DNA from: Acidobacteriota bacterium
GTDB taxonomy: Bacteria > Acidobacteriota > Vicinamibacteria > Marinacidobacterales > Marinacidobacteraceae
Assembly: GCA_022820545.1 (NCBI GenBank)
Contig: JAJEFG010000002.1
Span: 1-64,000, forward strand
Direction of reading: 5' to 3'
DNA length: 64,000 nt
Part shown: positions 1,617 to 62,856 of the stretch, in pieces
How positions within the stretch are numbered: position 1 is the stretch's first letter
How the letters are laid out: each line of letters opens with the position of its first letter
The notes under the pieces: generated by a model
The model's database searches: none
What the model saw: the letters and a program-made list of their open reading frames with translations, nothing else
Told to the model about the DNA's origin: nothing
Program-made: the position numbers and the translations under genes

Positions 1617-2834
1617 GTGTTCCTCTGCTGGGCCGCGTGCAACCCGGCGCCGCCACCCGCGACGGATCCGGTTCCACGCACGGCCGATGAACTCGCGAGC
1701 CGGTACGTGGAGCTTGCGTTCGCCCTTCACGACCTCGATCCGCTCTTCCTGGATCTGGTGTTCACCGATGTCCCTCCGGAGAACCCGGACCTCGAACTCC
1801 GGGAAATCGCCGAGCAGGCCGCGCGGCTCGCGGAAACCTCCCGCGAGATGGCGCGGACCGACGACGAATTCCGGGTGCGCCGCATCGAAGCGTCGCTGCG
1901 CGCCCTGGCGTTCCGCGCGCGTTCGTTGGACGGAGCACGCCGTCCCGTCGCCGAGGAACTCCGGGAGGTCTTCGGGCTCTCCTGGACGGATCCCGAGACG
2001 GACACCGAGCGCCTCCATTTCCGCGTGGATCGTTCGCTCGCCGGCGTGGCTCCCCTCAAGGTCCGCGTGCGCCGCTACTACGAGCGCTCCGACATGCCCC
2101 ACGGATCAGCCGAGGGAGGGCTCCGCGAGGCGCTCAGCGCGTGCCGGGCGCTGACGCTCGGGGAATCCCACGAAATGGACATCGATCCGCTGGCGATCCG
2201 GTGGATGGAAGCCGCGGAGACGCTCTCGCTTCCCACCGGACCCTCGCCCTTCTATCGGTACTCCGGTGAAGGGGCCGGCGCGCTGTGGCTTCCACGGGGC
2301 CTTCCCTTGCGGTCGTCGGAATTGAACCGGCTCGCGTGCCACGAAGGCGTCCCCGGGCATCACCTGCAGGCGGTCGTCGCCGACCGGGAGTTCCAGGCTA
2401 CCGGGTGGCCCGAACTCGGCATCGTGCCGCTCTACGGCCCCCGGACCGCAGTGTTCGAGGGGCTCGCCGTCACGTTCGAGGAACTCGTCCCGTCGGCCCC
2501 CGCCGATGCGTCGCTCCGCGCGCTGGAGCCCGTGGCGGCGCGCGTGCTCGCAGGCTATCTGGACGGTGATCTGAGTCGCCTGGACGCCCTGCGCGCCCTC
2601 GATTTCGAAGCGCTGGTTCCCGACCCGCACGGGCTTCTCGCGCACGCCGACCGCTTCGGCGGGTACGCTCTCGTCCGTCCCTCCGTCGATCCTGCATTCC
2701 GCACCGCCCTGGAGAGCCTCACGGACCCCGGGCTCTCAGCGCCGGACCGGCTCGCCAGGACTCTCGGAGCGATCCGCGAAGCCATGAGCCCCGCCGAACT
2801 CGTGCAACTCCTTTCCCGTCCTCTTCATAATTGA
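1617..2834 (+). CDS. DUF885-type predicted metalloprotease lipoprotein, short form
   Basis: Predicted zinc-dependent exported peptidase. The diagnostic DUF885 motif HEGVPGHH is at residues 242-249, and FEGLAVTFEEL about 35 residues later matches the family's EGWALYxEEL helix, which should supply a further metal ligand. At 405 residues it is shorter than the roughly 550-600 usual for DUF885 proteins; the missing part is in the N-terminal helical region. The N-terminus begins with a hydrophobic stretch and a lipobox-like LCWAAC, but the GTG used here leaves almost no positively charged n-region. The frame is open further upstream without an ATG, GTG or TTG I favour, so the true start is unsure. 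Substrate unknown. Confidence 0.72.
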   Translation: MFLCWAACNPAPPPATDPVPRTADELASRYVELAFALHDLDPLFLDLVFTDVPPENPDLELREIAEQAARLAETSREMARTDDEFRVRRIEASLRALAFRARSLDGARRPVAEELREVFGLSWTDPETDTERLHFRVDRSLAGVAPLKVRVRRYYERSDMPHGSAEGGLREALSACRALTLGESHEMDIDPLAIRWMEAAETLSLPTGPSPFYRYSGEGAGALWLPRGLPLRSSELNRLACHEGVPGHHLQAVVADREFQATGWPELGIVPLYGPRTAVFEGLAVTFEELVPSAPADASLRALEPVAARVLAGYLDGDLSRLDALRALDFEALVPDPHGLLAHADRFGGYALVRPSVDPAFRTALESLTDPGLSAPDRLARTLGAIREAMSPAELVQLLSRPLHN

Positions 2835-2849
2835 CCGCTGGTTGACGCC

Positions 2850-3392
2850 TTGCTGATTCGCCCGGCGCACCTCGTGGTGCCTGCATTCCTCGCCTTCACG
2901 GCTTGCGGAGCTCCCGAGGAAGAACCGCCCGCCGACGGGATGGAAGGCATGGCGGGGATGCCCGGGATGATGATGGCCCACGGCGATCACGCCCCCCGGT
3001 ACGGGGGCTACGTCTTCATGCACGGCGATCTCCACTTCGAAGTAGTGCTGACCGCCGAAGGCGAGCACCGCATCTACTTCTCCGACGCCATGCGCAGCGA
3101 ACTCCCCGCGGCGGTTGCGGAGGAGTTGCGGATCACCATCCGCCGGGTCGGCGAAGCCGGGGAAGAACTCGAACCCCTCCGTCCCCGGATTGACGAATTC
3201 GGCGAATCCTGGATCGCGAGCGGTGATCCCATCGATACCGAGGACACGGTCGCGATCGTCTATTTCCGGTTCGAGGGTTCTCCCTACGAAATCGAGGTTC
3301 CCTTCATCATGGAGCCCCCGACGGTGGACCCCCACACGGGGATGCCCATCGAGAGTTCCGAGACGCCGGAGCCGGGACAACCACCCCGTTGA
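2850..3392 (+). CDS. His/Met-rich lipoprotein, possible metal-binding
   Basis: 180-residue exported lipoprotein starting at TTG 2850, with lipobox FTAC. After the Cys comes an acidic linker, then a Met-rich patch (MEGMAGMPGMMM) and HGDHAPRYGG followed by HGDLHFE. The HGDxHxE arrangement resembles the small domain found ahead of some CzcB/CusB-type efflux adaptors, so binding of a soft or transition metal in the periplasm is a reasonable guess. No transporter gene lies beside it. It starts 15 bases after the DUF885 gene and ends 12 bases before the zeta-like kinase, so the three may share a transcript. No family name can be given with confidence. Confidence 0.6.
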   Translation: MLIRPAHLVVPAFLAFTACGAPEEEPPADGMEGMAGMPGMMMAHGDHAPRYGGYVFMHGDLHFEVVLTAEGEHRIYFSDAMRSELPAAVAEELRITIRRVGEAGEELEPLRPRIDEFGESWIASGDPIDTEDTVAIVYFRFEGSPYEIEVPFIMEPPTVDPHTGMPIESSETPEPGQPPR

Positions 3393-3404
3393 GGCGCGGC
3401 GCGA

Positions 3405-4121
3405 ATGAAGCGCGTCCTCATGATCGCCGGCCCGAACGGAGTCGGCAAGACCGCGTTTGCTACCGAGTACCTCCCTCGGGAGGCGGGGTTCCCCCGCTTC
3501 GTGAACGCCGATCTGATTGCGCGCGGCCTCGACCCGTTGTTGACTCCGCTCTCGGCGCCTGCCGGCCGCCTCATGCTCGAGCGGCTCGACGAACTCACGC
3601 AGAGCGGACAGAGCTTCGCGCTGGAAACCACGCTGGCCGGGCGTGCGCCGCTCCGCTGGATTCGAAAATGGCGTCACCACGGCTACCGCGTTGCCGTGTT
3701 CTACCTGACGCTCTCCTCCGTGGACCTGGCGCTGGCGCGCGTGCGCATCAGGGTGGAGCAGGGAGGCCACGATGTCGCGGAGTCGGTGATCCGCCGTCGT
3801 TTCGCAAAGAGCTGGAGCCACTTCACGAACCTGTACCGGCCCATCGTGGACTGGTGGGCCGTCTACGACAACTCGGAGGCGAGCCCGCGGCTCAGCGCCC
3901 GAGGAGGTCGGGAGGACGCGGGTGGCGCGCCTTTCGATCTCGTGGGGGCCGAAGTGGCGCTCCATCGCGCTGCGCGGGTGGCGCTGCGCCGCGCCGCCGA
4001 AATGCCGCAGCGCCGCGAAGAGGCGCAGTTGGACGCGAAACTCGATGAGCAGGTCCGCGCCCGCATCGCGGCCCGCGGGGCGGTGGTTCGCGATCCCCGC
4101 AACCCGAGCTCCGGGGAATAG
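3405..4121 (+). CDS. Zeta-toxin-like P-loop kinase
   Basis: 238-residue cytoplasmic protein. The Walker A motif GPNGVGKT is at residues 9-16. NADLIARGLDP and ETTLAG follow in the places where zeta-type kinases bind substrate, and RVRIRVEQGGHDV with IRRRF forms the Arg-rich lid typical of chromosomal zeta-like proteins. Zeta toxins phosphorylate UDP-N-acetylglucosamine, but many chromosomal relatives have unknown small-molecule substrates. No epsilon-type antitoxin lies next to it, so a classical toxin-antitoxin pair is not supported. The C-terminal 50 residues are charged and Ala/Arg-rich. It faces the MacB-like permease with a 44-base gap. Confidence 0.78.
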   Translation: MKRVLMIAGPNGVGKTAFATEYLPREAGFPRFVNADLIARGLDPLLTPLSAPAGRLMLERLDELTQSGQSFALETTLAGRAPLRWIRKWRHHGYRVAVFYLTLSSVDLALARVRIRVEQGGHDVAESVIRRRFAKSWSHFTNLYRPIVDWWAVYDNSEASPRLSARGGREDAGGAPFDLVGAEVALHRAARVALRRAAEMPQRREEAQLDAKLDEQVRARIAARGAVVRDPRNPSSGE

Positions 4122-53730: not shown

Positions 53731-54960
53731 TCAGCTTCCCAGGTAGGCGGGTCCCTCCGCCGCATCCGGCGGGAAGACGATGCGGACTCCTCCCTCCGGC
53801 TGGTTCTGCACGATGACGCAGCGGTTCTCGATCTGGAGGCGGCTCTCTTCGGGGAAATAGAGCCGGCCCCCCGGAAGCAGGGAGTCGTCCAACTCGAGGT
53901 TCTTGAGGGCGTCCCGGATCGCCTCCGGCTCCGTGGAGCCCGCGTTTCCGATGGCGGCGATCAGCGCCCGCGCCGCTTCGTAGGCGACCGCCGGGTAGTA
54001 CTCGGTTACCGGTCCCCCGAACTGCGCCTCGTACCGTTCGACGAAGTGCCGTGACCGCTCGTAGGGCAGCGCCCGGGTCCACCACTGCGCCGAAACCAGG
54101 TGGGAAACCGCCTCGCCAAGGCCCTCGCGAACCGAGCGCTCCGGGCCGCGCGCTCCGTAGCTCACGGCGATGTGCCCGAGTCCCTGCTCCACGTAGGCGC
54201 GGTGCTGCAGCAGGAAGTCGGGTTCGTGGGCGTCCGACAGAAACACGTCCGCTTCGACCGAACGCACCTTCACGATCAGCGACGTGTGGTCGCTCGAGAG
54301 GTGTTCGAAGGACTCGTCGAGGACGAGTTCGAACCGGTCCGCCTGTCCCTCGATGACATCGTGGACGCCGGTCCGGTATTCGCGGCCGTGGTCCGTGTTC
54401 TGCCACACCATCGCAACCCGGAGCGGTCTGGGAAGACGATCCTGGTCCTGTTCCCACATCAGCCACTCGAGCGTCGTGCTCGCGAGCGACTCCACCGGGC
54501 TGAGCGCCCCGAAGACCCACTGGTTTCCTTCGCGGAAGATCGATTTCGACGCGCCGCCGGCATTCATGAAGGGGATTCCGCGGCGCATCGGCACGATGAC
54601 CTGCGCCTGGACCAGCGGAGTGGAATACCCCGACAGGAGGGCGACGGCGCCGTCGACGGCGATCAGCCGCTCCAGGAGGCTCGGAGAGATGGAGGCGTCG
54701 CTCTTGTCGTCGTAAACGCGCAGCTCGATCGGCCGCCGGACCCCGTCGATCTCCACACCGCCCGCCGCGTTCGCTTCCTCGACGGCGAGCTGGTAGCCGT
54801 CCCGGAAGAACCCGCCGACGTTCGCGTGTTTGCCGCTCAGGGGGAGTGCGGCTCCGATTCGGATGGTGTCGTCACCGCCGCCCGAGCAGGCCGGGAGCAG
54901 AGCCACGCCCAGCAGAAGCCCGAGAACGGGAAACCATCGGATGCGGGAGTCGGGAGACAT
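53731..54960 (-). CDS. Liv-type ABC substrate-binding lipoprotein (SBP 2)
   Basis: 409 residues from ATG 54960; lipobox LLPAC (Cys25). PBP type I signature: IRIGAALPLSGKHANVGGFF, GYQLAVEEANAAGGVEIDG, VALLSGYSTPLVQAQ and FMNAGGASKSIF. Lacks the large insertion of SBP1, so the two likely bind different ligands. It is the first gene of the SBP2-livHMGF operon and faces the SbnI-like gene across 118 bases. Short-chain amide, urea or amino-acid binding is typical; no specific ligand can be given. Confidence 0.93.
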   Translation of the reverse strand: MSPDSRIRWFPVLGLLLGVALLPACSGGGDDTIRIGAALPLSGKHANVGGFFRDGYQLAVEEANAAGGVEIDGVRRPIELRVYDDKSDASISPSLLERLIAVDGAVALLSGYSTPLVQAQVIVPMRRGIPFMNAGGASKSIFREGNQWVFGALSPVESLASTTLEWLMWEQDQDRLPRPLRVAMVWQNTDHGREYRTGVHDVIEGQADRFELVLDESFEHLSSDHTSLIVKVRSVEADVFLSDAHEPDFLLQHRAYVEQGLGHIAVSYGARGPERSVREGLGEAVSHLVSAQWWTRALPYERSRHFVERYEAQFGGPVTEYYPAVAYEAARALIAAIGNAGSTEPEAIRDALKNLELDDSLLPGGRLYFPEESRLQIENRCVIVQNQPEGGVRIVFPPDAAEGPAYLGS

Positions 54961-55078
54961 GGCGGGAAGCCGGGTGAGGGAACCGGAAATCCTACCAATA
55001 CCGGCCTCGTCCGGCGCACTGACTTGTCGCTTCGTTCCGGCCGTCCCCCCGCACCCGACTCTACAATCGCCGCTCCTC

Positions 55079-55915
55079 ATGCCCAGCCGCGAGAAGCAAC
55101 ACCGCGAGGCCGGGATTCCGGCGATGGAAGTCCTGCGGATCCGCGACATCCGGCTGCACGAGGAGGTGGATCTCGCCCGGGTGGCGGCGCTGATCGAGCG
55201 GCTGGGTTCCGACGGGATCCTGCGGAACCCTCCCATCGTCGCTCGCCTCGAGGACGGCCGCCGGCTGCTGCTCGACGGAGCGAACCGGATCGAGGCCCTG
55301 CGGCGCATGGGGATGCAGCATGCCCTCGTGCAGACCGAGACCTTCGGGGATGAAGCCCTGGGTCTGACGCACTGGAACCATGTGATCCGCGGCCGGGAGG
55401 CGGCGTTGATCCTCGAGGATCCGCCGACGGCCGCGTGGTTCCAGCGCCCGGGCGAGGCGGCCGGCCCGGAGGGACAGCCCCTTTGCCGCATCTGGTCACC
55501 CGCCGGGGAGGTGACGGTGCTCTGGAGCCATCCGGGTCCCCGGGAGCGGGCGGCGGCGCTCCGCGAGCTCTGCACGCGCTACACGCATCCGCGCGCGCGG
55601 CTCGCCCGCATCGCGCATCGCGACCTCGACGAGGTCCGGTCCGCCTACCCGGAGTTCGGCGGCCTGCTGGAGTATTCCGACATTTCGAAGGAGCAGGTGC
55701 TCGCCACGACCGAGGCGGGCGCGCGGCTGCCGTCGGGGATCACCCGGTTCCTGGTCCCCCGGCGGGTCCTGGGTTTCAATCTTCCGCTGTCGTTCCTGGA
55801 GACGAACCTTCCGCTGGACGAGAAGCGCCGCCGCCTCGAGGATCTGGTGGCCGGCCGCTTCGAGACCGGCCGCGTCCGCTACTACGCGGAGCCGGCGTTC
55901 GTTTTCGACGACTAG
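55079..55915 (+). CDS. SbnI/SerK-like ParB-fold protein
   Basis: 278 residues from ATG 55079 (an internal ATG at 55124 is possible). N-terminal ParB/sulfiredoxin-like domain with HEEVDLARVAALIERL, GILRNPPIVARLEDGRRLLLDGANRIEALRRMG. Later NVHVIRGREAALILED-type strands and GITRFLVPRRVLGFNLPLSFLE recall the SbnI/SerK free-serine kinases rather than DNA-partitioning ParB. SbnI of staphylococci makes O-phosphoserine for a siderophore; no siderophore genes are seen here. Divergent from SBP2 and upstream of yebC. Kinase function is inference. Confidence 0.7.
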   Translation: MPSREKQHREAGIPAMEVLRIRDIRLHEEVDLARVAALIERLGSDGILRNPPIVARLEDGRRLLLDGANRIEALRRMGMQHALVQTETFGDEALGLTHWNHVIRGREAALILEDPPTAAWFQRPGEAAGPEGQPLCRIWSPAGEVTVLWSHPGPRERAAALRELCTRYTHPRARLARIAHRDLDEVRSAYPEFGGLLEYSDISKEQVLATTEAGARLPSGITRFLVPRRVLGFNLPLSFLETNLPLDEKRRRLEDLVAGRFETGRVRYYAEPAFVFDD

Positions 55916-56034: not shown

Positions 56035-56784
56035 TTGTCGGGACACAGCAAATGGCACTCGATCCGCCACAAGAAGGCCATCGTGGATGCGAAGCGCGGC
56101 AAGGCGTTCACCCGGCTGCTCAAGGAGGTCACCATGGCCGCCCGCATCGGCGGCGGCGACCAGCAGTTCAACCCGCGGTTGCGGCTGGCGGTCGAGAAGG
56201 CGAAGGCCGGGAACGTTCCCCGCGACAACATTGACCGCGCCGTCAAGAAGGGCACCGGGGACCTCCCCGGCTTCCGGCTGGAAGACGCCAGCTACGAGGG
56301 CTATGCGGCGGGCGGGGTCGCCGTCTTCGTCCAGGCGGCGACCGACAACCGGAACCGCACCGTCAGCGATGTCCGTCACCTGTTCTCCAAGTACGGCGGG
56401 AACCTGGGCGAGAGCGGCTCCGTCAACTGGATGTTCGAAAAGGCCGGCCAGTTCCTCGTGCCCAAGGACCAGGCCTCCGAAGACGACCTGATCGACCTCG
56501 TCCTCTCGAGCGGCGGCAGCGACGTGCTCGAGGACGGCGGGCACTGGGACCTGCGCTGCCCGCCCGAGGCGTTCGGGGCCGTCAGGGACGCCCTCGGGTC
56601 GAGCGGGATCCACTGTGACAGCGAGGAGATCGCCATGCTCGCGACCCAGCACGTGCGGGTCGCCGGCGGCGAAGCCCAGCGGGTCCTCAAGCTCATGGAG
56701 GCGCTGGAAGATCACGAGGACGTGACCGGCGTGTGGGCGAACTTCGACATGGACGACGAAGAACTGGACGCCGCGGCGTCCTGA
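56035..56784 (+). CDS. YebC/PmpR-family protein
   Basis: 249 residues from TTG 56035, behind GGAG (spacing 12). SGHSKWHSIRHKKAIVDAKRGKAFTRL at the N-terminus is the family hallmark, with GYAAGGVAVFVQAATDNRNRT and MWFDEL-like NWMFEKAGQF after it. YebC proteins act as transcription regulators or help ribosomes pass polyproline; which one applies here is not shown. It begins the run to ruvC-ruvA-mutS-like-ruvB-queA. The start is fixed by the conserved SGHSKW. Confidence 0.9.
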   Translation: MSGHSKWHSIRHKKAIVDAKRGKAFTRLLKEVTMAARIGGGDQQFNPRLRLAVEKAKAGNVPRDNIDRAVKKGTGDLPGFRLEDASYEGYAAGGVAVFVQAATDNRNRTVSDVRHLFSKYGGNLGESGSVNWMFEKAGQFLVPKDQASEDDLIDLVLSSGGSDVLEDGGHWDLRCPPEAFGAVRDALGSSGIHCDSEEIAMLATQHVRVAGGEAQRVLKLMEALEDHEDVTGVWANFDMDDEELDAAAS

Positions 56785-56798
56785 CCGAGCAGCCTCCT

Positions 56799-57350
56799 TT
56801 GGATCCCTCGAAGGCCGCCGGTGATTCCGGGACCCGGCCCGGGATTCGCGTCGTCGGGCTCGATCCCGGTTCCCGGATCGCCGGCTGGGGCGCGGTGGAC
56901 GAGACGGAGGGCCGATTGCGCGTCGTGGACTTCGGGGTCGTCCGTTGCCCGCCCCGCGACCCGCTCGTGTTGCGCCTCCAGCGGCTTCATCGGGAGATCG
57001 GCGAGGTCATCAAGCGGCTCCATCCCGACGAGGTCGCGGTGGAAGCGGTGTTCAGCGCGGCGAGCGCCGGGGCGGCCCTCACGCTCGGGCACGCGCGCGG
57101 CGCGGTGCTGGTAGCGGCGGCGGACCTTCCCGTCGCCGAGTACAGCCCGCGCAGCGTCAAGCAGGCGCTGACCGGCTACGGGGCGGCCGGCAAGGGCGCG
57201 GTCGCCGTTATGGTGGCGAGACGCCTCGGGATGGCCGAGCCGCCGGACGCGGAGGACGCGGCGGACGCGCTCGCCGTCGCGATCTGCCATCTCGACGCCC
57301 GGCGAGCCGAGGCCCGCCTGACCCGCGCCGTGCAGGGGCGCCCGCGGTGA
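56799..57350 (+). CDS. ruvC: Holliday junction endonuclease RuvC
   Basis: 183 residues from TTG 56799, chosen because GLDPGSRIAGWG (Asp22) must follow within about 20 residues; the frame is open further upstream. Catalytic region VAVEAVFSAASAGAALTLGHARG, then SPRSVKQALTGYGAAGKGAV, DAADALAVAICH. It resolves four-way junctions by symmetric nicking. The stop overlaps the ruvA start (GTGA). Position after yebC is the usual one. Confidence 0.92.
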   Translation: MDPSKAAGDSGTRPGIRVVGLDPGSRIAGWGAVDETEGRLRVVDFGVVRCPPRDPLVLRLQRLHREIGEVIKRLHPDEVAVEAVFSAASAGAALTLGHARGAVLVAAADLPVAEYSPRSVKQALTGYGAAGKGAVAVMVARRLGMAEPPDAEDAADALAVAICHLDARRAEARLTRAVQGRPR

Positions 57351-57949
57351 TCGAGCGCCTCGCCGGCCGGCTCCTGGACACGGGGGATGGAGATGTACTG
57401 ATCGACGTGGGCGGCATCGGCTTCCGGCTCCAGGTGTCCTCCGGCACCGCGTCGCGGCTTCCGGCGCCCGGGGAGGAGGTCCGCCTCACGGTGCGCATGC
57501 TGCTGCACCGCGAGGAAACCGTGCAGCTCTACGGTTTCGGCAGCCGGGAGGAGGCGCTCCTCTTCGATCAGCTCCGGGGGGTCAACGGCGTCGGCCCCTC
57601 GGTGGCGCTGAATCTCCTGTCGCTCTCCGTTCCCCGGCTTCGCCAGGCGATCCGGGACAAGGAAGTGAAGTTTCTCCAGGGGGCGCCCGGAGTCGGTGCG
57701 AAGCTGGCGCGCCGCCTCATCACGGAACTCGCGGAAGCGCTTCCCGACGACGAGAGCGACGCGCCGCCCCCGGCGCCGCGCGATCCGGTCCACGAACAAT
57801 TGGTCACCGCCTTCGCGAACCTGCAGTTCACCGACCGGCGCCGCATCGAGGAAGTCGTGCAGTCCGTCCGCGCCGAGCAGCCCGACGCCGAACTCCAGGA
57901 ACTCTTCAAGGCGGCTCTCCATCGCCTCTCTTCCCGAGGATCCGCATGA
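57347..57949 (+). CDS. ruvA: Holliday junction DNA-binding protein RuvA
   Basis: 200 residues from GTG 57347. N-terminal OB domain (MIERLAGRLLD-type, LIDVGGIGFRLQV, LYGFGSREEALLF), HhH region GVNGVGPSVALNLL and GAPGVGAKLARRLITEL, then a domain III separated by a Pro/Ala linker (DDESDAPPPAPRDP). Tetramer binds junctions and loads RuvB. Overlaps the next gene by 4 bases (ATGA), so it is translated together with a MutS-like protein, which is unusual. Confidence 0.95.
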   Translation: MIERLAGRLLDTGDGDVLIDVGGIGFRLQVSSGTASRLPAPGEEVRLTVRMLLHREETVQLYGFGSREEALLFDQLRGVNGVGPSVALNLLSLSVPRLRQAIRDKEVKFLQGAPGVGAKLARRLITELAEALPDDESDAPPPAPRDPVHEQLVTAFANLQFTDRRRIEEVVQSVRAEQPDAELQELFKAALHRLSSRGSA

Positions 57950-59931
57950 CCACCCCTTCTCCCTCGCCCGCCGACGCCAACGAGTTCTGGGGCCGGGCCA
58001 ACGAGCGGCTGACCGAGGCGTCCGGCCTGCTCACGCGGGTCCGCCGCATCTCGACGGCGCGGCTGGCGGTGGTCGTGGTGGCGCTTGCCCTGGCGCTCGG
58101 CGCCGGCGACGTCGGATTCTGGTCCCCGTGGTGGGTCCTCGTCCCGGGCGCCCTGTTCGTCTGGCTGGCGTTCGTGCACGAACGTCTCCTGAACCGGGCG
58201 CGCGGCGTCCACCACGTTGCCCAGCTCTACCACCGGGCCGCGGTCCGGGTCGATCGGGACACGGAGGGAGAGCCGGGCAGCCCCGGCACCCCGGCGGCCG
58301 CGATCCGGCGTGGGGGGACTCCCGCCCAGCGCAACACGGCGGACGAGGACCATCGTCTCGCGGACCGGCGCCACCGGGTGTCGGAACTCGGGGAGAGTCA
58401 TCTCGGCGACCATCTGGATCTCTTCGGATCGGGTGGGCTCTTCGAGCGGCTGGCGGACTGGCGGACCGACACCGGCGGCGAAACGCTCGCCGGGTGGCTG
58501 CTCCGGTCCGCGGCGCCGGAGGAGGTCACCGGCCGGCAGCTTGCCATTCGGGAACTCGGGGCCCGGATCGAAATCCAGGAGACGCTCGCGGCGACGGGCG
58601 CGCTGGAGCCCTGGCCGAGCACCCGATCGTCGGTGGTGCTCGATTGGCTGGCGTCGGATGGCGGGACCGGCGACGGGCAGGAGGACCCCGCCGCCGCACC
58701 TGCGGGCCGAAAGCCCGAAGTGCTGCCCGCCGTCCTGGCCGTCCTGCTGAGCGCGACCATGCTGGGGGGGCTCCTGCGGTGGATCACCGCGGGGGAGGCG
58801 TCCTTCTTTCTCGCCTCGGTGTCCCTTTCGGCGGCCTGGGGCCTCTGGCTCCGGTCCCAGGTACGGGAACAGGAAACCGTCCTGCGGCTGATGGAATCGG
58901 AGATCGCCGGCATCCGGCAGATCGCGCTCTCCGTCACCTCCGCGGGATTCGAGTCGCCGCTGCTGCGGGGCCTGGCGGAGCGCCTCGCGCGCGCCGAGGC
59001 GGCGCTCGGGAAGCTGGAACGGCTGCAGGTCCGCCTCGCCGCGCGGCGGAATCTGCTCTTTGCGCCGGTCGCCGCCATGCTGTTCTGGGGCACGCACCAC
59101 CGGTGGGCCATCGAGCGCTGGCGCCGCCGTCACCAGCAGGAGGCGCGGGGATGGGTCCGGGCCGCCGGGGAGTTCGACGCGCTCCTGGCGCTCGCGCAGT
59201 ACTGCATCGAGCGCCCCGGACACGTCTTCCCCGAGTTCGACGACGTGCCGGGCTTCGAAGCCCGGGGCCTCGGCCATCCGCTCATCCCGGAAGCGCGCCT
59301 GCAACGGAACGACGTTCGCCTCGGCCGCGGGGACGCGGACATGCTGATCGTCACCGGCTCCAACATGTCGGGGAAGAGCACCCTGCTGCGGACGATCGGC
59401 GTGAATGTCGTCCTGGCCCGGATGGGTGCGCCGACCGCCGCGACGACCTTCCGGCTCGGGCCGCTCGCCCTCGGCGCCTCGATCGCCGTTCACGATTCGC
59501 TCCAGGACGGCGTTTCCCGGTTCCTGGCGGAACTGCTGGCGCTCAAGGCGGTGCTGAACACCGGCTCGAAGGAGGAGCCGCTGCTCTTCCTGCTGGACGA
59601 GGTCCTGCAGGGGACCAACTCGGACGACCGCCGCGCCGCGGTCGCCGCGCTCCTGCGTGAGCTGGGCCGGCGATCCGCCGTCGGCGTGATGACGACGCAC
59701 GACCTTTCGCTCACGGAGCTGGCTCACGAACTGCCGGGCCGCGTGCGCAACATGCACTTCACCGAGCGGGTGGTGGACGGCGCCATGGAGTTCGACTATC
59801 AGCTTCGCGAAGGAGTCCTCGCCCGCGGCAACGCGCTCGATCTCATGCGGATCCTCGACCTGCCGGCGCCCGAAGGGGACCGGGCCGACTTCACTTCGCT
59901 TCCCGCCCCCGGACCCGGACGGGAGAACTGA
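57946..59931 (+). CDS. Membrane-anchored MutS-like ATPase
   Basis: 661 residues. One or two hydrophobic helices lie at about 40-78 (LAVVVVALALALGAGDVGFWSPWWVLVPGALFVWL), and another pair at about 262-310. The C-terminal third is a MutS-type ABC ATPase: Walker A TGSNMSGKST (471-479), LFLLDEVLQGTNSDDR with Asp551-Glu552 as Walker B, and GVMTTHDLSL as the H-loop. The MutS mismatch-binding and connector domains are not recognisable; the middle segment (ETLAGWLLRSAAPEEVTGRQLAIREL...) resembles MutS lever/core text. Such MutS-like proteins are common but unstudied. Placed between ruvA (4-base overlap) and ruvB (12-base gap), it may act with branch migration at the membrane. Confidence 0.8.
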   Translation: MTTPSPSPADANEFWGRANERLTEASGLLTRVRRISTARLAVVVVALALALGAGDVGFWSPWWVLVPGALFVWLAFVHERLLNRARGVHHVAQLYHRAAVRVDRDTEGEPGSPGTPAAAIRRGGTPAQRNTADEDHRLADRRHRVSELGESHLGDHLDLFGSGGLFERLADWRTDTGGETLAGWLLRSAAPEEVTGRQLAIRELGARIEIQETLAATGALEPWPSTRSSVVLDWLASDGGTGDGQEDPAAAPAGRKPEVLPAVLAVLLSATMLGGLLRWITAGEASFFLASVSLSAAWGLWLRSQVREQETVLRLMESEIAGIRQIALSVTSAGFESPLLRGLAERLARAEAALGKLERLQVRLAARRNLLFAPVAAMLFWGTHHRWAIERWRRRHQQEARGWVRAAGEFDALLALAQYCIERPGHVFPEFDDVPGFEARGLGHPLIPEARLQRNDVRLGRGDADMLIVTGSNMSGKSTLLRTIGVNVVLARMGAPTAATTFRLGPLALGASIAVHDSLQDGVSRFLAELLALKAVLNTGSKEEPLLFLLDEVLQGTNSDDRRAAVAALLRELGRRSAVGVMTTHDLSLTELAHELPGRVRNMHFTERVVDGAMEFDYQLREGVLARGNALDLMRILDLPAPEGDRADFTSLPAPGPGREN

Positions 59932-59943
59932 CGGGAGCGCTGC

Positions 59944-60969
59944 ATGGCTGCGCCGCAAGGTTCCCCCGGCCGCCGGGACGAGGAGTTCCACCAGACCCTC
60001 CGCCCCCGGGACTTCGGGGAGTACGTCGGCCAGACCGCGGTCCTCGAACAACTCGAGATCAGCGTCGGCGCGGCGCGGGCCCGGGGAGAGGCTCTCGATC
60101 ACGTGCTCCTCCACGGACCGCCCGGCCTCGGCAAGACCTCGCTCGCCGCGGTGCTCGCCCGGGAACTCGAATGCCACATGCACACCTCCGCGGGGCCGCT
60201 CGTGCCGCGCACCGGCGACATGGTGGCGCTGCTGAACGCGCTGGGCCGCAACGAGATCCTGTTCATCGACGAGATCCACCGCCTCGCGCCCGCCGTCGCG
60301 GAAGTCCTCTATCCGGCCATGGAGGACCACTACGTGGACATCATGGTCGGCGAGAAACTCGGCGCCCACAGTCTCCGCATCGACCTGCCGCCGTTCACGC
60401 TGGTGGGGGCGACGACCCGCGCCGATCTGCTGACCGGCCCGCTGCGGGACCGGTTCCCGCTCGTCCACCAGCTCGAGTTCTATTCCGTCGCGGAGGTGGA
60501 GCGGGTCCTGGCGCGCGCCGCGCGGGTGCTGGGCGTGCATCTCGAGCCGGATGCGGGAGAGGAGATCGCCGCGCGGGCCCGGGGGACGCCGCGGGTCGCC
60601 AACAACCTGCTGCGGCGGGTGCGCGACTACGCCGAGGTGCGCGGCGACGGAACGATCCGCCGGGAGACGGCGCTCGCGCTGCTGGAGATCGCCCGGGTCG
60701 ACGAACAGGGGCTCGACCGTTTCGACCGCAAGATCCTCGAGAGCCTGCTCGACAACTTCTCCGGCGGGCCGGTGGGGGTGGCCAACCTCGCCGCCACCCT
60801 CGGGATGGACAACCGCACGCTCGAGGAGGTCCACGAGCCGTATCTCATCTACCGCGGCTTCCTGCGGCGGACGGCGAAGGGACGCATGATCACCGACCGG
60901 GGCGCCAGGCACCTGGGGCGGGCGGCCTCGGGGACGCTGTTTCCGGAGACACCGAGCGCCCAAACCTGA
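59944..60969 (+). CDS. ruvB: Holliday junction ATPase RuvB
   Basis: 341 residues. Walker A GPPGLGKTS (58-66), FIDEIHRLAPAVAEVLYPAMED with Walker B, GATTRADLLTGPLRDRF sensor, GTPRVANNLLRRVRDYA and the winged-helix region IYRGFLRRTAKGRM. It is the motor of RuvAB branch migration. Only 12 bases from the MutS-like gene and 29 before queA. Full length and motifs intact. Confidence 0.96.
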   Translation: MAAPQGSPGRRDEEFHQTLRPRDFGEYVGQTAVLEQLEISVGAARARGEALDHVLLHGPPGLGKTSLAAVLARELECHMHTSAGPLVPRTGDMVALLNALGRNEILFIDEIHRLAPAVAEVLYPAMEDHYVDIMVGEKLGAHSLRIDLPPFTLVGATTRADLLTGPLRDRFPLVHQLEFYSVAEVERVLARAARVLGVHLEPDAGEEIAARARGTPRVANNLLRRVRDYAEVRGDGTIRRETALALLEIARVDEQGLDRFDRKILESLLDNFSGGPVGVANLAATLGMDNRTLEEVHEPYLIYRGFLRRTAKGRMITDRGARHLGRAASGTLFPETPSAQT

Positions 60970-60998
60970 CCCCGGCAGCGAATACGGCCGATCGAAGT

Positions 60999-62066
60999 TT
61001 GCGGACTTCCGATTTCGCCTACGAACTGCCGGCGGAACTCATCGCGCAGGCGCCGCCGGCGGCGCGGAGCGATGCCCGCCTGCTCCATCTCGACGCCGGC
61101 GGCCGGACGGCGCACCTGGGTTTTCCCGACCTCCCGGCGCTGCTGCGGCCGGATGATCTGCTGGTCCGCAACGTCACCCGGGTGATTCCCGCCCGCGTGC
61201 CGGCCCGGAAGGAGGCGGGCGGCGGGCGCGTCGAGGTGTTCATCCTCCCGGAGGGCGAGGAACCGGGAGGGCTTTTCCGGGCGCTCACCCGGCCGGCGCT
61301 GCGACCGGGCGTCCGCCTGCTCGCCGGCGAGGGAGACCCGGTCCGTCTGGAGGTGGGCACGGACCTCGGCGGCGGGCAGCGCGAGATCCGGATCGTTGCC
61401 GGCGCCGCCGGGATCCTCGACCTTGCCGAGCAGGCGGGCCGGACGCCCCTGCCACCGTACATCCGTCGCGATCCCGAAGGTCCGGAAGGGCCGGACGGCA
61501 TGGACCGGGAGCGGTATCAGACGGTCTACGCGCGATTCCCCGGCTCGGTGGCGGCGCCGACCGCCGGTCTCCACTTCGAACCCGAGACCTTCGGCCGGCT
61601 GCGCGCGAACGGCATCCGGATCGTGGACCTGGTCCTTCACGTCGGCTACGGGACCTTCGCCCCGGTGCGGGTCGAGGACCCACGCGACCACGAGCTCGCG
61701 GCCGAGAGGTTCTTCGTTCCCGACGCGACCCGGAGGGCGGTCCGCGCCCAACTGGCCGAGGGCCGCCGGGTGGTGGCGGTCGGGACGACCACCGTCCGGG
61801 TGCTGGAGACCCCCGGGGTTCTCGAGAGCGACGGCATCGCCGGATCGACCTCGCTGCTGATCCTCCCGGGCCACCGCTTCCGGGTGGTCTCCGCGATGCT
61901 GACCAACTTCCATCTCCCCGGGAGTTCGCTCCTCATGCTGGTCGCGGCCCTCGGCGGAACGGACGCGGTGCTCGCCGCCTACCGCGAGGCGGTACGGCGC
62001 CAGTACCGCTTCTACTCCTACGGCGACGCCATGTTCGTGGAGAAGGGCGCCCCGGCGGCGCCGTGA
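60999..62066 (+). CDS. queA: S-adenosylmethionine:tRNA ribosyltransferase-isomerase QueA
   Basis: 355 residues from TTG 60999. TSDFAYELPAELIAQ at the start, NVTRVIPARVPARKEAGG, SVAAPTAGLHF, GTFAPVRVEDPRDHELAAERF and MLTNFHLPGSSLLMLV are the family hallmarks. It makes epoxyqueuosine in tRNA from preQ1 and SAM. Position behind ruvB is classical. TTG is used; no ATG is near, and the ruvB stop is 29 bases earlier. Confidence 0.94.
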   Translation: MRTSDFAYELPAELIAQAPPAARSDARLLHLDAGGRTAHLGFPDLPALLRPDDLLVRNVTRVIPARVPARKEAGGGRVEVFILPEGEEPGGLFRALTRPALRPGVRLLAGEGDPVRLEVGTDLGGGQREIRIVAGAAGILDLAEQAGRTPLPPYIRRDPEGPEGPDGMDRERYQTVYARFPGSVAAPTAGLHFEPETFGRLRANGIRIVDLVLHVGYGTFAPVRVEDPRDHELAAERFFVPDATRRAVRAQLAEGRRVVAVGTTTVRVLETPGVLESDGIAGSTSLLILPGHRFRVVSAMLTNFHLPGSSLLMLVAALGGTDAVLAAYREAVRRQYRFYSYGDAMFVEKGAPAAP

Positions 62067-62126: not shown

Positions 62127-62202
62127 ACGTCGTAAAGCCCACCCGGCAAAGGCGGCTCCTACCTCGGCGTTGCGCTCGAGAGTGGAGGTGACGCAACGGC
62201 TT

Positions 62203-62247
62203 GGAACGCCGGCTTCAGCCGGCACAGCAGCGCGCAGCGCTGCGGGC
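62203..62247 (+). repeat. Two-hairpin REP-like unit
   Basis: GGAACGCCGGCTTCAGCCGGC followed by CGCGCAGCGCTGCGGGCG, a less regular second hairpin. Same orientation as its neighbours at 62083 and 62351, giving a direct tandem series rather than an inverted pair. Confidence 0.65.
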
Positions 62248-62313
62248 GGTTCATCGCCACGGATGCTCAGGCGGCAGGGAGACGGGACCCGGCGGCCAGG
62301 GCTCCTACAATCC

Positions 62314-62484
62314 GCCACCCATGAAACGCCGAAGCGTCGGAAGCGGAGTCGGAGCGCCGGCCTCCGGCCGGCATCGTCCGCCGCAGGCGGGCGAAACACG
62401 GAAACCCCGACCCGCCGGATGGCAGTTCGGCCTGCCAACGGCGAGGCGCCACCCATGAAACGCCGACACGTCGGAAGCGGAGTC
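62314..62484 (+). repeat. Imperfect 37-bp direct repeat of the ridA start region
   Basis: Copy 1 (62314-62350) and copy 2 (62448-62484) both read GCCACCCATGAAACGCCGA then CGTCGGAAGCGGAGTC, differing at two positions. Copy 2 contains the working ridA start at 62455. Copy 1 offers another ATG at 62321 whose frame runs 45 codons through the REP unit and stops at TGA 62456-62458, overlapping the ridA ATG (ATGA). Confidence 0.85.
62351..62397 (+). repeat. REP-like unit between the two copies of the ridA start
   Basis: GGAGC, hairpin GCCGGCCTCCGGCCGGC, CATCG, second hairpin CCGCCGCAGGCGG, then GCGAAAC. It begins directly after copy 1 of the direct repeat. The next 50 bases up to copy 2 have no recognisable signal. 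Confidence 0.8.
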
Positions 62485-62856
62485 TCCTGGGAAACCGAAT
62501 TCGGCTACTCCCGCGCCACCCGGATCGGCGACCGCATCCTGGTCTCCGGCACCACCGCAACCGGGCCGGACGGGCCGGTGGCGATCGGCGACCCGGCCGA
62601 ACAGACGCGATACGCCATCGGGAAGGTCCGCACCGCGATCGAGTCCCTCGGCGGCACCCTCGACGACGTCGTCCGCACCCGGATCCACGTGAAGCCGGGG
62701 ACCGACTGGGAGCCGGTGGCCAGGGTCCACGGCGAGTTCTTCGGGTCCGTCCGGCCCGCCTGCACGCTGACCTACGCGGATCTCATCGGGGAGGAGTACC
62801 TCGTCGAAATCGAGGTCGAAGCCGTCGTCGGCGCCGCCGCCCCGGAGGGCGCGTGA
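62455..62856 (+). CDS. RidA/YjgF-family protein
   Basis: 133 residues from ATG 62455. Small trimeric enamine/imine deaminase family: GYSRATRIGDRILVSGTTA, AEQTRYAIGKVRTAIESLGGTLDDVVRTRIHV and VRPACTLTYADLIGEEYLVEIEVEAVV. The catalytic Arg is represented in RPACT, where family members usually have PAR; so it may be a Rid2-7-type protein rather than a true RidA. Its stop overlaps the next gene's GTG start (GTGA). Start has a short duplicated upstream copy (see above). Confidence 0.85.
   Translation: MKRRHVGSGVSWETEFGYSRATRIGDRILVSGTTATGPDGPVAIGDPAEQTRYAIGKVRTAIESLGGTLDDVVRTRIHVKPGTDWEPVARVHGEFFGSVRPACTLTYADLIGEEYLVEIEVEAVVGAAAPEGA

Follow-up and report, generated by a model that had tools for sequence, protein, structure and literature searches.

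MutS-type ATPases have been described on several kinds of client. MutS1, the group that includes bacterial MutS and MSH2/MSH6, grips DNA by domain I and the clamps, and MutS2, which is without domains I and II, binds Holliday junctions by its core and clamp (PMC12292046). In Bacillus subtilis, MutS2 splits ribosomes using its ABC ATPase, and its KOW and SMR domains recruit it to them (PMC10897456). Furthermore, MutS-like proteins accompany B12-dependent enzymes (PMC9164220), as in the KamC-type B12-enzyme reactivases, where a MutS-type ATPase serves a protein client. The superfamily is therefore already known, and the four-helix membrane architecture summarized here is a new variant as far as the literature found shows; no description of a four-helix membrane MutS was met in that literature, and the family may figure in Ogata 2011 (MutS subfamilies) or Krishnan 2020 (ABC ATPase classification).

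The gene considered here lies in a stretch of 64,000 nucleotides from a member of the Acidobacteriota (class Vicinamibacteria), hereafter the window. It stands between ruvA and ruvB, and its neighbors were named by NCBIfam models as follows:

56035–56784, forward strand: yebC (PRK00110, 306.8 bits; TTG start likely)
56799–57350, forward strand: ruvC (TIGR00228, 118.4 bits; start uncertain)
57347–57949, forward strand: ruvA (TIGR00084, 144.8 bits), overlapping the MutS-like gene by 4 bases
57946–59931, forward strand: gene for the MutS-core membrane ATPase (661 aa, ATG start; Pfam MutS_V, 4.2e-24)
59944–60969, forward strand: ruvB (TIGR00635, 401.7 bits; also PRK00080), 12 bases 3' of the MutS-like gene
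about 60990–62066, forward strand: queA (PRK00147, 362.3 bits; start uncertain)

These identities agree with the gene order yebC-ruvC-ruvA-(MutS-like)-ruvB-queA given by an earlier, sequence-only reading of the window, and the junctions it described, including translational coupling to ruvA, are borne out by the sequence as well. The letters ATGA hold both the ruvA stop (57947–57949) and the ATG of the MutS-like gene, and 12 bases separate the stop of the latter from the ruvB ATG at 59944. Because ruvC and ruvA likewise overlap by 4 bases, such an overlap is usual for this operon and is not peculiar to the MutS-like gene. A scan for promoters and terminators across the operon gave no excess over shuffled sequences. 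Beyond the operon, an open reading frame 5' of yebC (54830–55915) weakly matches an SbnI/SerK-type free serine kinase (55 bits; cut-off, 350), and a gene of the RidA/L-PSP family lies 3' of queA (62170–62856).

The MutS-like reading frame is a real, working gene under selection, since the arrangement is kept in all 13 genomes of the window's order that carry the gene and its dN/dS among seven species of the genus is about 0.14, next to 0.11 for ruvC, 0.15 for ruvA and a similar value for ruvB. A decaying passenger gene, whose position has no functional meaning, would fit the patchy occurrence of this protein family in the phylum (49 of 159 Acidobacteriota genomes) and the restriction of the ruv position to one order; however, the dN/dS value and the invariant catalytic residues described below are those of a working gene, and the ruvA overlap has been retained, so we regard decay as hardly credible.

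The encoded protein can be divided into the following parts:

58063–58191, forward strand: N-terminal transmembrane hairpin, residues about 40–82 (family-mean hydropathy peak 1.97; AlphaFold helices 13–55 and 61–106)
58399–58593, forward strand: N-terminal core part of MutS domain III, residues about 152–216 (hhalign to the genome's own MutS1; PF05192 in 74 of 82 family members)
58720–58857, forward strand: second transmembrane hairpin, inside the MutS core, residues about 259–304 (hydropathy; AlphaFold helices 259–282 and 286–332)
59044–59085, forward strand: short loop at the site of clamp domain IV, residues about 367–380 (hhalign gap against the MutS1 clamp; AlphaFold secondary structure; no PF05190)
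59221–59865, forward strand: MutS domain V, the ABC-type ATPase, residues about 426–640 (PF00488 at 467–641; Foldseek to MutS 7oto, E 6.5e-17)
59356–59382, forward strand: Walker A, GSNMSGKST, residues 471–479
59494–59523, forward strand: ABC-signature-like loop, DSLQDGVSRF (D517, S524 and F526 invariant in 82 proteins)
59584–59601, forward strand: Walker B, LFLLDE (LLDE = residues 549–552)
59692–59703, forward strand: H-loop, TTHD, residues 583–586 (H585 and D586 invariant in 82 proteins)

The ATPase motifs are thus intact, as the sequence-only reading had stated. Among 82 aligned family sequences, Pfam finds MutS_V (PF00488) in every one and MutS_III (PF05192) in 74, and domains I (PF01624), II (PF05188) and IV (PF05190) in none. 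The earlier statement that mismatch-binding domains are unrecognizable therefore stands for domains I, II and IV, but domain III can be recognized across the family. PF05192 does not match the window protein by itself, and its domain III is supported by hhalign and by fold alignment. When aligned by hhalign with the MutS1 of the same genome, the protein pairs over domain III (from residue 142 onwards) and then over domain V, leaving the MutS1 clamp without a partner. Sub-threshold Pfam matches, such as those to AAA_27 and Wzy_C, were dismissed. The chain ends about 20 residues past domain V, with neither the helix-turn-helix tail of MutS1 nor the KOW/SMR tail of MutS2. The structure prediction that the sequence-only reading had suggested, made from 82 sequences with AlphaFold, returned a fold of MutS domains III and V (pLDDT 88.2, pTM 0.89); the best Foldseek matches of this model are all MutS (E 6.5e-17, TM-score about 0.5), and no transporter appears among the top matches.

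In addition to this core, two hydrophobic blocks (residues about 40–82 and 259–304) are seen in the hydropathy of the protein and in that of the family mean, and each block is modeled as a pair of helices. In the 76 family proteins with enough of their sequence present for this comparison, the N-terminal block was found in 75, the middle block in 75 and both in 74. The flanks are rich in lysine and arginine and the hairpin loops are almost free of charge in the family mean, which suggests that the N-terminus and the ATPase are cytoplasmic. Predicted transmembrane helices conserved throughout the family, together with this positive-inside pattern, are the features by which the product is predicted to be an integral membrane protein. 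Overall, the model is that of a protein with four predicted membrane helices arranged as two hairpins. The sequence-only reading had called the product a membrane MutS homologue with two N-terminal hydrophobic segments; the first point is supported by the conserved blocks, and the second describes the N-terminal hairpin correctly, but the total comes to four predicted helices because a second hairpin lies within the core. A further short hydrophobic stretch at residues 370–388 (59053–59109), at the site of the lost clamp, is seen in the family mean and may touch the membrane.

The protein can be compared with the described systems. With MutS1 it shares domains III and V, Walker A and B, the signature-like loop and the H-loop, and Foldseek and hhalign cover most of the core; unlike MutS1, it has no domains I, II and IV and no C-terminal helix-turn-helix, and it carries two membrane hairpins. 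With MutS2 it shares the MutS-type ABC ATPase and the lack of domains I and II, but it is without the clamp, KOW and SMR domains, has membrane helices, and is aligned by hhalign in the domain V region only. Because the scores lie far below the cut-offs (103 against 480 and 91 against 642 bits for the NCBIfam MutS models; 83.8 against 400 bits for the MutS2 model TIGR01069) and the clamp and tails are missing, it is, as judged from sequence, a MutS-superfamily protein with core domains III and V that is neither MutS1 nor MutS2. The KamC model matches the ATPase part (88.3 bits), but this is below the 300-bit cut-off, covers the ATPase only, and no aminomutase gene adjoins the MutS-like gene.

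ABC transporters share with this protein the combination of an ABC-type ATPase and membrane helices in a single chain, a likeness of principle only, as the fold found by Foldseek is that of MutS. One could nevertheless imagine ATP-driven transport, or movement of lipids or ions, along a path made by the eight hairpin helices of a dimer, as an invention independent of ABC transporters. Two conserved membrane hairpins per subunit beside an ABC-type ATPase would suit such a role; however, the exclusively MutS-like top matches and the lack of any recurrent substrate-binding or transport neighbor make it quite improbable.

The distribution of the family was examined in one genome per species for 84,980 species, which gave at least 592 confirmed relatives. 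The best 80 of these come from Acidobacteriota, Planctomycetota, Myxococcota, Bdellovibrionota, Bacteroidota, Pseudomonadota, Verrucomicrobiota, Bacillota, Binatota and others. Three genomes (G028, G149 and G192) have two matches to the family each. No recurrent neighbors were found outside the window's order among the 80 named loci, which are those of the best 80 relatives. Neighbors were also tried as a clue to function by comparing the flanking frames of 110 loci all against all, and this returned only the ruv genes of the order, shadow frames and generic genes.

Thirteen of 14 genomes of the window's order have the gene (the one without it is 66% complete), and each of the 13 carries it immediately 3' of ruvA, with a junction of −4 to about +11 bases. 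Between the gene and ruvB there are 0 to 913 bases, and two of the sister family's four genera have antisense genes in this gap, with the ruvA link intact. The joint production with RuvAB that the sequence-only reading claimed consequently holds for RuvA and is only partly conserved for RuvB. The antisense frames before ruvB encode 173 aa in locus L011 (about 2930–3750, reverse-complemented), resembling a MarR-like regulator by eye, and an unassigned product of 230 aa in L014 (about 2440–3350, reverse-complemented).

Outside the order, the gene adjoins ruvA in none of the 30 genomes of the class that have both genes: 1 Mb separates the two in G032, whose genome is a single contig, and in the others they are on separate contigs. 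Nor are they adjacent in any of 39 further genomes of the phylum (0/39), where the frame of about 200–300 aa that best matched HHH_5 was taken as RuvA. Among the named loci of the best 80 of at least 592 relatives, of which 58 are flanked by 1.5 kb or more on each side, none has a recognizable ruvA, ruvC or orthologous ruvB; a single weak AAA match (30%) occurs in L058. Linkage to ruv is thus limited to the window's order among the genomes surveyed and does not recur across lineages in the manner of a RuvAB component. Such a survey for MutS-like genes between ruvA and ruvB had been proposed from the sequence, with adjacency in this lineage only, by chance, named as evidence against a joint role; its outcome, complete within the order and nil beyond it, goes part of the way to that result.

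In the rest of the class, yebC, ruvC, ruvA and ruvB stand together with ruvA and ruvB adjacent (18 of 18 loci outside the order), and the family gene therefore was inserted into a pre-existing operon. A topology with the order's proteins as one clade is not rejected (p-AU 0.99), so that a single insertion suffices. A first tree split the order's two families, which raised the possibility of two separate insertions into one site; this was set aside, as the one-clade tree scores 72 log units higher and is not rejected. The ruv placement looks like one lineage-specific insertion, a curiosity of this lineage that probably says little about function. As a counterpoint to accidental placement, a chance neighbor need not have stayed directly behind ruvA in 13 of 13 genomes.

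This tight coupling bears on the possibility that the protein is a membrane-tethered accessory of RuvABC, whose MutS core would detect branched DNA, or keep hold of it, at the inner membrane and bring in RuvA. The binding of Holliday junctions by MutS2, which likewise is without domains I and II (PMC12292046), would be compatible with this, and junction binding by MutS2 can draw in part on its domain III, a counterpoint to any reading without DNA. However, the clamp, connector and helix-turn-helix are missing, the family is widespread without ruv genes nearby, and the ruvB link is interrupted in two genera. The original suggestion of membrane-tethered junction processing or of a branched-DNA sensor is weakened by these findings, and we consider it unlikely.

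The main reason for which a RuvAB role stays under consideration is that canonical MutS2 (TIGR01069 above cut-off) was found in none of the ten genomes of the window's bacterial family (G000–G009), which leaves some scope for action in recombination or on ribosomes. Of 13 tested genomes from the sister family and elsewhere in the class, 12 have MutS2, and MutS1 and MutL are encoded elsewhere in the window's genome. MutS2 thus appears to have been lost in the window's family, where MutS1 and the membrane form would be the only MutS-type proteins found. This niche might suggest a membrane version of MutS2 ribosome rescue, acting on ribosomes that stall at the membrane by splitting or removing them, by analogy with the ribosome-splitting ATPase of MutS2 (PMC10897456). 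The operon also contains queA and yebC, the latter a ribosome-stalling factor in other bacteria; YebC2 is reported to relieve stalling (PMC11990639). However, the protein is without the KOW and SMR domains that recruit MutS2 to ribosomes, relatives with the membrane protein usually retain MutS2, and the family has no recurrent translation neighbors, all of which make ribosome rescue very unlikely.

The reading we prefer, and hold to be probable, is a four-helix membrane MutS-core ATPase that works on a membrane or protein client and was inserted once into the ruv operon. Domains I and II would have been replaced by the N-terminal membrane hairpin, the second hairpin inserted into the core, and the DNA clamp cut to a short loop. 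Two copies may dimerize in the inner membrane with their ATPase domains in the cytoplasm; ATP at the composite sites would close the dimer, and domain III could pass this movement to the hairpins. DNA gripping is unlikely because domain I, the clamps and related parts are missing or reduced and membrane hairpins are in place, and the client would instead be a membrane or membrane-bound protein, a view held by analogy with the MutS-type ATPases known on ribosomes and B12 enzymes. In the ancestor of the order, a single insertion between ruvA and ruvB may have taken over the coupling to ruvA, which would provide steady co-expression with housekeeping genes and need not imply work with RuvAB. A further proposal, which we put forward tentatively, is that in this family MutS, an ATPase that encircles DNA, has turned into a membrane machine, with membrane hairpins in place of its DNA-binding parts, in which ATP-driven closing of the dimer moves inner-membrane helices; a principle like that of ABC transporters or membrane chaperones would then have evolved separately from DNA-repair stock.

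Members of this family are easily named mismatch-repair MutS because they match only the models of the MutS ATPase and core. Their anatomy indicates an inability to grip DNA in the manner of MutS and predicts a location in the membrane. The membrane reading would mean correcting annotations across several phyla, and it brings into view a family of membrane ATPases that has gone unstudied, for which the ruv operon of this order offers a handle for expression studies. Finally, two features of the protein were noted in the window's bacterial family: a low-confidence insert at residues about 107–150, and a C-terminal tail (59875–59928) with the motif (D/E)FTSLP, which three genera of the family share (also in L009 and L010), which is absent from the other aligned members and which may be a binding peptide.
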